Below are positions 29,484-34,523 of a DNA stretch of 39,294 bases, piece by piece. A program made the position numbers and the translations under genes. The notes beneath the pieces were generated by a model. It was not told where the DNA came from, made no database searches, and worked only from the letters and a program-made list of their open reading frames with translations. Source of the stretch: Planctomycetia bacterium (GTDB taxonomy: Bacteria; Planctomycetota; Phycisphaerae; Phycisphaerales; SM1A02); the NCBI GenBank assembly GCA_005790565.1, contig SXUJ01000010.1:1-39294 (forward strand), written 5' to 3'. The stretch's first letter is position 1. Every line of letters starts with the position of its first letter.

Positions 29484-29551
29484 CGCACTGAAATGTACCG
29501 CGACCTCAAAATGCCGAGTGTGGGTCGGAAGGTCGACCGCCACTCGATGCC

Positions 29552-29596
29552 AAAAAACCGACCGCGGGGTTCGTTCCGCCGAAACCCCTACGGTCG
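29552..29596 (-). terminator. Strong intrinsic terminator, minus strand
   Basis: On the minus strand CGACCG pairs with CGGTCG. Inside it, GGGGTT pairs with AACCCC and CG with CG around GCGGAA, followed by G and six T (29557 to 29552). The hairpin ends 68 bases upstream of the cytochrome-LRR start and no gene precedes it on this strand for over 500 bases. It would terminate a small RNA, or act as an attenuator in the leader of the operon. On the plus strand the hairpin lacks a following T-run. Confidence 0.65.
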
Positions 29597-30109
29597 TCCC
29601 TTTAGGACAAGGAAAGCCAGTTGTCGCGACTCATCCCAGAAGAGAGTCAGCAGTCGGATCGCGGATCCGATGGCTATCTGCAATGCGCACTGCGTTCACC
29701 GTGATTCGAACGATGGACTCAAGAAATGGCGCGTCACAACTGCTCGTACGCGAACAAACATCCTGTTCGGAGTACTCCGAACAAGATCATTCCGCACGCC
29801 CTTCAACCACACTCCGGAATCACGCCTATGGAAACAGGCGCACCCACGCCGAATTTGCCACGAGCGTGGACGAAGTCAAGTGATCTGAGGATTCTTTGCA
29901 GAGACCATGCACGATTCTCTCGCGAGAACGGTCCGGTGCTTCGGATTTCCGCAATTGCGGTGGGATCTGAGGGCTTTCGTAAGTCCGTGAACCACGAAGG
30001 GTTTCGTCAATTACGAATATGTTCGCTCGACTCTAGCGCATCGCGTGGTACTCGATGTAAGTTCACCGAACCACGCCTCGGCGGTGTTCGACAACGCGAA
30101 GTTTCTCAT
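29597..30109. other. Intergenic region without a convincing gene
   Basis: Between the divergent cytochrome-LRR gene (start 29483) and the beta-helix gene (ATG 30110) lie 626 bases, of which this is the part past the terminator. Only short open frames occur, and those longer than 100 codons extend over the antisense of the neighbouring genes. The region holds a 20-bp perfect palindrome (29764-29783) and the inverted pair TTCGTAA (29976-29982) and TTACGAA (30011-30017). A regulatory region or small RNA gene is possible; I recognise no known RNA family. Confidence 0.5.
29764..29783. promoter_or_regulatory. 20-bp perfect palindrome, candidate operator
   Basis: TGTTCGGAGT is followed directly by its reverse complement ACTCCGAACA, giving ten-base arms with no spacer. 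The site lies in non-coding DNA 280 bases from one start codon and 327 from the other. It has the shape of a dimeric regulator site; the factor is unknown. Confidence 0.45.
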
Positions 30110-31579
30110 ATGCAACGTTCCTATCTCCGTACGGCGCTTCCATTCCTCGCCATCCTCTCCCTCGGAGCGCCTTCATTGGCAGCGACGAGATAGGTCAATG
30201 TTGGGACCACCTCCGGTTTGAACAACGGAACAAGTTGGACGGATGCGTATCAAGGCGCGGGAGGCCTCGCGACAGCACTCGCGGCGAGCGTGAGTGGCGA
30301 CCAGATCTGGGTTGCCGCCGGGGTCTACAAGCCAACGACAACGACGACCCGCACCATTTTCCTCACGCTCAAATCGGGCGTGGGAATCTACGGCGGATTC
30401 AGCGGGATGGAAGGCAAGCTCGCGCAGCGAAACTGGGAAGCAAATCCCACGATCGTCACCGGCGATCTCCTTGGGAATGACAACGGCGCGCTCAATCTCA
30501 CCGACAACAGCTACCACTGCTTTGTCGGGAGCGGCGCCGCCGCAACGGCCATTCTCGATGGATTCACGATCAAGGGCGGCTACGCCAATGGCGCAACGGC
30601 TTCAAACTACGACAAGGGCGGCGGCATCTTGATCGTCGGGAGCGGGAACCCGACCGTGCGCAATTGCAGTTTCATTGGCAATCGATGCACGTTCGGCGGT
30701 GGTGCGGGATACATCTTCACCGCAGGGGCGACTTTCACCAATTGTCGGTTCGAAAGCAACGTTGGCGGTTCCTACGGCGGCGCGTTTGACATGAATGCGG
30801 TCACGGGAACATTCGATCGCTGCGTCTTCCTTGGCAACACGGCCGCTCGCGCGGGGGCGCTTGAGAGCTACGGCTCAAGCGTGACCAAGGTGACCAACTG
30901 CGTTTTTAGCGGAAACTCCGCGACGGGAAGCAATGGTGGCGGCGCGATGTGGATTGGAACGAGCAGCGCGTGCACCATTCGCAATTCCACCTTTGTCGCA
31001 AATTCTGCAACCACACTCGCTGGCTGCCTCATCAACACCAGCGGCACAAGCACGATTTCGAATTGCATTCTCTGGCAGAACACGGGCCCCGGCGGCATGA
31101 CGTCAGCGAACCAACTCACGAATTCTGGCGGCAGCACAACGGTCTCCTACTCGATCGCGCAGGGCGGACTCGCAGGCACCGGAAACCTCAACACCGACCC
31201 ACTCTTCGTGGACGCTCCCACGCGCAACTTTCAGTTACAGCTCACCTCGCCGGCGATTGACTCGGGATCAAACGCGATGGTTCCCGCTGGAACCATCCTC
31301 GACCTCGCGAGTGCGCCGCGCTTTGTTGATCTTCCCACCGTCGTGGACACGGGCGCGGGAATCGCCCCAATCGTTGACCGGGGTGCGTTTGAAGCGCAGT
31401 TGCTCGCGCCTCCGATCTGCCCCGCCGATCTCGACTCCAACAACCTCGTCGACGCCGCCGACCTCGCGATTCTTCTCGGCGCATGGGGATCCACTGGAAA
31501 CGCCGACTTCGACGAAAACGGAACAGTCGACGCCGCCGACCTCGCCGTGTTGCTCGGCGCGTGGGGCAGCTGCAACTAG
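30110..31579 (+). pseudogene. Secreted beta-helix protein with dockerin-like tail, interrupted by in-frame TAG
   Basis: From ATG 30110 the frame encodes a clear signal peptide (RTALPFLAILSLGAPSLAA), then TAG at 30191-30193, and then continues in the same frame without further stops to 31579. Joined, it is 489 codons. After the stop come VNVGTTSGLNNGTSWTDAYQ and a run of right-handed parallel beta-helix repeats (GGGILIVGSGNPTVRNCSF, GGAMWIGTSSACTIRNSTF). The end CPADLDSNNLVDAADLAILL and GNADFDENGTVDAADLAVLL carries two dockerin-like calcium loops. In homologous proteins a Tyr often precedes VNV or VDA, so TAG may be a mutated TAT or TAC. TAG is an ordinary stop in this window (nuoC, ileS). Either a recent nonsense mutation, a sequencing error or readthrough explains this. 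Confidence 0.75.
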
Positions 31580-34401
31580 GCAACGCCGACGGCGAGCGCG
31601 TCGCGGTCACTGAGCATCCCGCCATCACTGCGGAGCCGCACGCTTGCGTCGCGCCGCCAACTTCGCTCGCAGCGCGGCTGCGCGCGGAGATCCTCGACCT
31701 GCACGGGGGAACTTGATTCCTCCGCACTCAACCGCACTCGGCTCACGCCAAACACATCGGCGAGATCGGCAAGGAATGGCCGCAACGCACCGGCACCATC
31801 GGGAAGGATGAGCCCCGCGTCGAGTTTGTTCTCAAGCCCCGATGCCTTGGCAACCTCGAGTGCCCTTCCCACACGATCTTCGAGCGCAAACACCGTGCTC
31901 CACCGCGAATCCGCCACGACCTGCAGATCGCAATACTGTTCCCGCATGATGCACGCGGACTCACTTCGCGTCAGCACGCGCCACGCTTCATCGGCGGTGT
32001 GTGGAAGGATCGGTGCAAGCAATCGGCAAAGCGTCGCGGCGGCGGTGTACATCGCACTCTGCGCCGCGCGGCGGCGCGGGGCATCGGGCGCGTCACAGTA
32101 CAAACGATCCTTGGTCGCCACGCAGTAGCCGGCGCTCAAAGTATCGTTGCAGAAGTCAAAGATCGCGCGTGTGCCATCGCGGAATTGAAATGCCTTGTAC
32201 GAAGCGCGCACCGAAGATTGGAGCGTCGCGAGTTCCGACAGCATCCATGCTTCGAGAGAGTCAACGCGATGTGCAGCTGGTTCGATGGCATGCACTGATC
32301 GATCAAAGTCGTCGAGATTCGACAAGAGGTATCGGAGGGTGTTACGCACCTTGCGATACGCCTCGCCAGCGACATTGAAATACTCCATGTCCATCCGGAT
32401 GTCGTTCTCGTAGTCGATCGAACTCGTCCACCACCGCGCGACGTCCGCGCCATGCTCCTTCATCACCGCTTCAACTTCGATGGTGTTCCCGAGCGACTTC
32501 GACATTTTCTTCCCCTCGCGATCCACGATGAAGCCGTGCGTCACGAGGCGCTTGAACGGGGCAACTCCGGTCGCGCCCAATGCCGGAAGCAGCGAGAGCT
32601 GGAACCACCCGCGATGCTGATCCGATCCCTCGAGATATGCCTCACTCGGGTAACCCAGGCCGCGAGCACGGAGCACCGCGTTCCACGAACTGCCCGCTTC
32701 GAACCAGACATCAAAGATGTCGTAGAGCTTGGTGATCGCCGCAACATCGAGCCCCTTCGGCGCATCAGGATCACTCGCGGCGTTGTAGTGGGAGAGCAAC
32801 TCTGCCGGAGTCTCCATGAACCAGCAGTCACTTCCCTTCTCCGCGACGCGCGCAGCGATCGCGCGCACGCTCGCCGCAGTGAGAAAGATGCTGCCATCTG
32901 CCTGTCGGAATGCGGGAATCGGCAGTCCCCACGCGCGCTGCCGCGAGAGACACCAGTCAGGGCGCGACTCAAGCATGCCGCGCATGCGATTGCGTCCCCA
33001 GTCGGGAACGAACTCAATCTGCTGATCGACGGCTTCGATCGCCATGGTGCGCAGACTCTTCTTGTCGCGCTTCGTTGGGCGATCCACGGAGATAAACCAT
33101 TGCTCGGTCGAGCGAAAAATCACCGGAGTCTTCGATCGCCAATCATGCGGGTAAGAATGGCTGAACTTGTGGTCGTAGAAAAGATGCCCACTCTCGCGCA
33201 GACGCTCGACAACTTCAGGATTCGCGTCCCAAATGAGTTTTCCGACAAGCCACGCCGGCACGCTGTCGTCGTAAGTCCCGTCTTCTCGCACCGGGCAATA
33301 CGCCGCAAGGCCCTCCTTCAGGCCAGTTCGATAATCGTCCGCTCCGTGACCAGGTGCGGTATGCACAAGCCCCGTGCCATCTTCGAGCGTCACATAGTCC
33401 GCCGCGACGATTCGACCAATTCGGTCGCAGAAGGGATGGCGGTATTGCATCCCGAGCAGTTGTTCGCCGTCGACCTCCGCCAGACGCACGATTGTTTCCA
33501 CTCCAGCCTTCTGCGCGACGCGATCGACGAGTTCACTCGCCACAATTGAGGTCGCTCCGTCCATCGTCACCAGCGCGTACCGATTGCGAGGGTGGACGGC
33601 GATGGCGAGATTTGCCGGAAGCGTCCACGGTGTCGTCGTCCAAATCATGAACGACGGCGTGACATCGAGCTCGCAGCCAAAGATCGCCTCGAGCTTCTGC
33701 CGATCCGTTGCCTCGAAGTCCACATACACCGAGTGATCAATCCGATCCTCGTACTCAAGTTCCGCTTCCGCGAGCGCGGTCTTGTTCGCGATCGACCAAT
33801 GCACAGGCTTGAGCGCGCGGTAGACCACATCCTGTTCGAGCAGAAGCGCGAAGACCTCCAGCACCTTCGCTTCAAACTCCGGCATCATCGTGAAGTACGG
33901 GTGCGCGTAATCCGCGAGCGTCAGCAAGCGCTTCATCTGCGTTGTCTGCAGGTCGATGAACTTCTTCGCGCTCGCGGCGCACTCTCGACGAATCGCCATC
34001 CGTCGCGCATCTGGTTCGAGACCATCGATCTTGGCGCCCTTCCCCTTCTCATGGAGTTCCGTCATCACCTTGTGTTCAATCGGGAGCCCGTGGGTGTCCC
34101 AACCAGGGACATAATGCACACGATGGCCCTCCATCAGCGCCGCGCGCACGACGAAGTCCTTCAGCACCTTGTTGAGAAGGTGCCCCGCATGAATGTTCCC
34201 GTTCGCGTAGGGAGGCCCATCGTGGAAGACGAATGGTGTGCTGTCACTCCGCAGCGCAAGGAGTTGCGCTTGCAGATCCATGCCGTCCCAGCGTTTCATG
34301 GAGATCGGCTCCGACTGCACCAAGTTCGCCTTCATCGCGAACGCGGTCTTCGGAAGGCGAACGGTTTCCTTGTAGCTGCGAGGGCTGCTTGCGTCGGTCA
34401 T
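31576..34401 (-). CDS. ileS: Isoleucyl-tRNA synthetase, degenerate C-terminal zinc site
   Basis: IleRS charges tRNA-Ile. The 941-aa protein has HAGH at residues 71-74 (the HIGH motif), VPGWDTHGLPIE, the editing (CP1) domain with WTTTPWTLPANLAIA, the class Ia KMSKSLGN motif near residue 632, and the anticodon-binding domain. Bacterial IleRS often ends in a zinc finger CxxC-x16-CxxC. Here the spacing is exact but the residues are Cys911, Ser914, Ser931 and Asp934 (RCERSW ... LSDRD), so zinc binding is probably lost. ATG 34401 is chosen; the longer frame to 34461 adds a non-conserved lead. The stop shares the bases CTAG with the convergent beta-helix gene. It starts 122 bases from the divergent methyltransferase gene. 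Confidence 0.96.
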   Translation of the reverse strand: MTDASSPRSYKETVRLPKTAFAMKANLVQSEPISMKRWDGMDLQAQLLALRSDSTPFVFHDGPPYANGNIHAGHLLNKVLKDFVVRAALMEGHRVHYVPGWDTHGLPIEHKVMTELHEKGKGAKIDGLEPDARRMAIRRECAASAKKFIDLQTTQMKRLLTLADYAHPYFTMMPEFEAKVLEVFALLLEQDVVYRALKPVHWSIANKTALAEAELEYEDRIDHSVYVDFEATDRQKLEAIFGCELDVTPSFMIWTTTPWTLPANLAIAVHPRNRYALVTMDGATSIVASELVDRVAQKAGVETIVRLAEVDGEQLLGMQYRHPFCDRIGRIVAADYVTLEDGTGLVHTAPGHGADDYRTGLKEGLAAYCPVREDGTYDDSVPAWLVGKLIWDANPEVVERLRESGHLFYDHKFSHSYPHDWRSKTPVIFRSTEQWFISVDRPTKRDKKSLRTMAIEAVDQQIEFVPDWGRNRMRGMLESRPDWCLSRQRAWGLPIPAFRQADGSIFLTAASVRAIAARVAEKGSDCWFMETPAELLSHYNAASDPDAPKGLDVAAITKLYDIFDVWFEAGSSWNAVLRARGLGYPSEAYLEGSDQHRGWFQLSLLPALGATGVAPFKRLVTHGFIVDREGKKMSKSLGNTIEVEAVMKEHGADVARWWTSSIDYENDIRMDMEYFNVAGEAYRKVRNTLRYLLSNLDDFDRSVHAIEPAAHRVDSLEAWMLSELATLQSSVRASYKAFQFRDGTRAIFDFCNDTLSAGYCVATKDRLYCDAPDAPRRRAAQSAMYTAAATLCRLLAPILPHTADEAWRVLTRSESACIMREQYCDLQVVADSRWSTVFALEDRVGRALEVAKASGLENKLDAGLILPDGAGALRPFLADLADVFGVSRVRLSAEESSSPVQVEDLRAQPRCERSWRRDASVRLRSDGGMLSDRDALAVGVA

Positions 34402-34523
34402 GGCATGCGCGGGGAGAAGAAAGGAATGGCAGAGAGTAGGCGTTGTCGCCGAGAGTGCCACAGGATATCAGCGACAACCTTCTGCTTCATGCGCCCCCCC
34501 GCCTGAAGCCGATCTTGAGCAAC

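Follow-up and report, generated by a model that had tools for sequence, protein, structure and literature searches.

An in-frame TAG codon that parts a likely signal peptide from the body of a conserved beta-helix protein is very probably the result of a one-base change from a tyrosine codon, reflecting either an allele that lost its function very recently or an error in the consensus sequence. It lies in the window, the whole 39,294-nucleotide stretch of DNA from an uncultured planctomycete analyzed here, and a recent null allele is about as likely as a consensus error to be its source. A single base change would have turned the Tyr codon just past the signal peptide into TAG within an otherwise intact and conserved gene for a secreted protein with a beta-helix and a dockerin-like end. 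If the TAG is real, ribosomes would stop at it after 27 residues, presumably with release factor 1; the product would be a leader peptide of no use, and the exported protein would probably be lost.

The interrupted gene and its relatives

The gene and its convergent neighbor are arranged as follows.

30110..30190, plus strand: leader of 27 codons that resembles a signal peptide on visual inspection (MQRSYLRTALPFLAILSLGAPSLAATR)
30191..30193, plus strand: in-frame TAG, at a site that codes for Tyr, Phe, His, or Arg in relatives
30194..31579, plus strand: right-handed beta-helix frame of 461 codons, then a C-terminal dockerin-like repeat pair (Pfam, NCBIfam)
31576..34461, minus strand: ileS, convergent neighbor (TIGR00392, E 5e-238)

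The original prediction placed signal peptide and mature domain in one frame, separated by nothing but this TAG, with no further stop in the remainder. Both points are borne out, as the codon at 30191-30193 shares its frame with the ATG at 30110 and with the 461-codon frame downstream (30194-31576), which has no further stop along its length and closes at the TAG at 31577-31579. At this end the beta-helix gene shares the four bases CTAG (31576-31579) with ileS, and within them TAG is the stop of each gene.

The downstream frame matches the Pfam family Beta_helix (PF13229) at 46.1 bits, above the gathering cut-off of 25.9 bits (E 5e-12). The match to Dockerin_1 of Pfam is under the cut-off (E 0.041), and the curated cut-offs of two NCBIfam families are not reached, with 20.8 versus 29 bits for dockerin_GC (NF041540) and 23.5 versus 25 bits for choice_anch_Q (NF041518). 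The dockerin-like end has 69 matches in the same genome, mostly to that end only. TGA stops inside three of these dockerin-like matches (L009, L024, and L029) were set aside as gene ends followed by chance alignment. A promoter scan of positions 29500-31700 found none, with 0.3 expected by chance, and a search of the literature by titles gave nothing on the locus, nor on dockerin proteins of planctomycetes with a stop behind the signal peptide.

At the TAG site, a sense codon is present in all 14 of the distinct related loci that were tabulated, a stop in none of them, and each has a similar leader in the same frame. Tyr, which had been put forward as the common residue at this position in relatives, occupies it in 8 of the 14 loci, and the expectation is thus mostly right; the others have Phe (4 loci), His (1 locus), or Arg (1 locus). 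The table held 16 rows besides that of the window gene, from which L162 and L163 were dropped as coming from the same genomes as L032 and L031; its scope leaves aside L038 (Arg before VD), L170 (without the N-terminal part), and weaker or partial matches (L039 onwards and L172 onwards). Each of three other genomes of the genus has one full-length uninterrupted orthologue, with 87, 85, and 78% identity over the mature protein, and a single orthologue is present in four of the four genomes of the genus examined, our own included. Other genera and named assemblies contain orthologues that are more distant, and a VNV or VDA start is common to most orthologues. The combination of an in-frame TAG with the downstream frame is not chance, because the orthologues continue without a break across the site, where they have a sense codon. 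Judged from these sequences, Tyr is the probable immediate ancestor of the TAG: TAC or TAT is a single step away, and the Phe codons of two congeners are two steps away.

The 461 codons were compared one-to-one with those of the three congeneric orthologues, which are of equal length and align with zero gaps. For the nearest relative the pairwise dN/dS is 0.065, with dS nearly saturated at 1.37. With G001 as the outgroup, the bootstrap median of dN/dS is 0.064 on the gene's own branch (95% range 0.035-0.106) and 0.063 on the sister branch (range 0.032-0.207); with G002 as the outgroup, the point estimates are about 0.056 and 0.082, respectively. On the own branch 29 non-synonymous and 45 synonymous changes could be placed, against 20 and 31 on the sister branch, and 180 were not placed. 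The data show no relaxation of constraint since the lesion, the ratio on the own branch being close to that on the sister branch, a result that a gene still read through would give equally. As a rough guide, since dS is saturated, constraint lost for more than about one twentieth of the branch should have raised the ratio beyond the range observed. The frame still looks constrained on its own branch, and therefore the stop is very recent, or not real, or harmless.

Decoding of TAG

The use of TAG as a normal stop by ileS, and with it the argument against genome-wide recoding, had been part of the original prediction. ileS does end on TAG (31578-31576, minus strand), as do 9 of the 29 listed frames of the window, the beta-helix gene included, and 110 of 504 frames with a length of 200 codons or above, taken longest first, in a 767,694-bp sample. 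The prediction cited nuoC as well, a name that came up for none of the 14 window frames scanned. A search of the genome with the release-factor family gave four places, among which L091 is an RF1-type protein with a PAT motif and L090 an RF2-type protein with an SPF motif; we take PAT to mark RF1 and SPF to mark RF2. Genome-wide recoding of TAG is rejected on this stop usage, ileS among it, together with the RF1-type protein.

A search for an amber suppressor tRNA had been proposed as a check. None of the 32 tRNA places found by a family search, all read by ARAGORN, has the anticodon CTA, although the same set is also without tRNAs for Tyr, His, Asn, Lys, Cys, and Ile, and an amber-reading tRNA could have escaped it likewise. 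These six tRNAs are absent from the 32 places even though the assembly has a completeness rating of 100%. A pattern for a CTA tRNA gave 9 hits and no CTA tRNA gene, four of the hits lying in loci without a tRNA and the others in tRNAs for Arg, Leu, Met, and Glu. With a pattern for tRNA-Tyr there were 12 hits, and the 8 of these (in 7 loci) that were read by ARAGORN include no tRNA-Tyr; the other 4 were left unread. Suppression was rejected on stop usage, RF1, and the tRNAs, of which the set is in part missing, and nothing found supports a special decoding of TAG.

Isolated stops elsewhere in the assembly

A codon-score scan for lone stops over 1,134,448 bp of the assembly (about 43%) gave 38 candidates, the window TAG included. 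As controls, 1,090,882 bp of the congeners G003 and G001 gave 46 candidates; the codon table was trained on each congener in one run, and another run used our own table for both. The frames were then read through the stop and scanned with Pfam for all 37 other candidates of our genome and for 34 of the 46 control candidates, in frame, the 12 left unscanned being plain gene junctions on reading. Of the 37, the following 4 have a Pfam domain that spans the stop.

L134 18827-18829 (plus-strand coordinates), contig C8 of assembly G000, gene on the minus strand: mutL, TAA
L149:2203-2877: gene of a HepT-like RNase, interrupted in frame by a lone TAA at 2692
L160:5507-6334: Mrr-type gene (Mrr_N) with an in-frame TAA
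L274:6419-6850, minus strand: frame of a GDSL hydrolase, interrupted in frame by TGA and changed in its GDS motif

Among the 34 control candidates a domain spans the stop once, in a chemoreceptor coil adjoining a DinB gene, which looks like a gene junction and is doubtful as a lone stop. With the window TAG counted, lone stops of all three kinds thus occur in the assembly, at unrelated places. The contrast with the controls, suggestive and not a test, suggests that the assembly carries more stray stops than its relatives, through real decay, base errors, or both. By eye, the Mrr-type gene seems to lose its frame later on and is probably a decayed defense gene, and the GDSL hydrolase, with its altered GDS motif, is probably truly decayed. 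A direct comparison of frames between genomes for nonsense changes and frameshifts was too noisy, owing to antisense frames and leader regions (at least 238 raw flags in one direction, for example); among the matches listed, mutL and the window gene alone stood out by eye, to which we attach little weight.

In mutL the TAA stands in place of the conserved Glu of the KELVEN (ATPase) motif, and the codon after it is also changed, being Asn in the nine relatives compared. A search of 25 genomes gave 24 mutL matches over the cut-off, with a stop inside the gene only in our own genome and in none of the congeners. The stop may make the lineage a mutator if it is real, or be a local base error if it is not. 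A real stop would be of more interest than the beta-helix TAG, as the lineage would probably lack mismatch repair. Loss of mismatch repair is expected to give transitions. A mutator origin does not explain the window TAG, because TAC or TAT to TAG, like GAA (as in G003) to TAA in mutL, is a transversion.

Competing explanations and known systems

The assembly is fragmented and contains several isolated stops, of which the window TAG is one, and the gene that it interrupts is kept by the lineage. A nonsense allele that is real, whether fixed or polymorphic, and that affects a non-essential secreted protein has in our estimate an even chance of being the explanation. The assembly contains further apparently decayed genes, and with so many proteins that share the dockerin-like end (69 matches, most to that end only) the loss of one may be tolerated; this reading has to contend with the single orthologue in all four genomes of the genus and its strong constraint, which indicate that the gene matters to the lineage. 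A consensus base error, with a TAG that comes from sequencing, assembly, or strain mixing and a sense codon in the living cell, is a serious possibility that we place somewhat short of even. It draws on the fragmentation of the genome into 177 contigs and on mutL of the same assembly, where the codon after the TAA for a conserved Glu also carries an unusual base change and where, of the 24 genomes with a match over the cut-off, ours alone has a stop. It draws as well on the 4 domain-spanning stops here versus 1 doubtful case in the congeners. Two of these four, in the Mrr-type and GDSL genes, look truly decayed by eye, and real lesions therefore probably occur in our genome too. The original prediction had left open a recent lesion, an assembly error, or readthrough or suppression; the sense codon in 14 of 14 relatives, the lack of relaxed constraint, and four more isolated stops in unrelated genes speak for the first two, and the third finds no support in the data.

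Programmed or tolerated readthrough of the TAG, setting the amount of exported protein, is very unlikely. A tidy in-frame stop after a signal peptide does resemble readthrough, the stop standing a few residues past the likely cleavage site and the remaining frame being intact and constrained, yet this stop is one of several scattered through a fragmented assembly, and caution is due. There is no positive evidence for programmed readthrough: the 14 tabulated relatives are all free of a stop at this codon, the genome has an RF1-type protein, no suppressor tRNA was found in the 32 tRNA places and 9 pattern hits of an incomplete search, and the other four isolated stops, each a TAA or TGA, lie at unrelated places. 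The more specific idea that a real TAG is partly read as an amino acid by a near-cognate or suppressor tRNA, and acts as a switch on the amount of secreted protein after the export signal, is highly improbable. A restart of translation downstream, giving a cytoplasmic protein, is an extremely remote prospect; a frame of 453 codons does start at a TTG (30218, for example), but its product would drop both the signal peptide and the VNV or VDA start common to most orthologues.

Among known systems, the secreted beta-helix proteins with a GC-type dockerin or choice-of-anchor Q (NF041540 and NF041518) resemble the window gene in having a beta-helix followed by two Asp-rich repeats that end in LLGAWG, and the same genome has many matches to this C-terminal end; unlike the members of these families, the window gene scores under both curated cut-offs. 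UAG suppressor tRNAs and pyrrolysine are known routes of amber suppression and readthrough. Such systems share with the window gene an in-frame TAG followed by a conserved frame, whereas here the genome has an RF1-type protein, no CUA tRNA was found in it, and no tabulated relative has a stop at the site. The window stop, unlike that of a recent nonsense pseudogene proper, may not exist in the living cell. In all else, the one stop in an otherwise intact frame, the uninterrupted orthologues in congeners, and constraint that is not yet relaxed are those of a recent nonsense pseudogene, and the case is an ordinary nonsense lesion.
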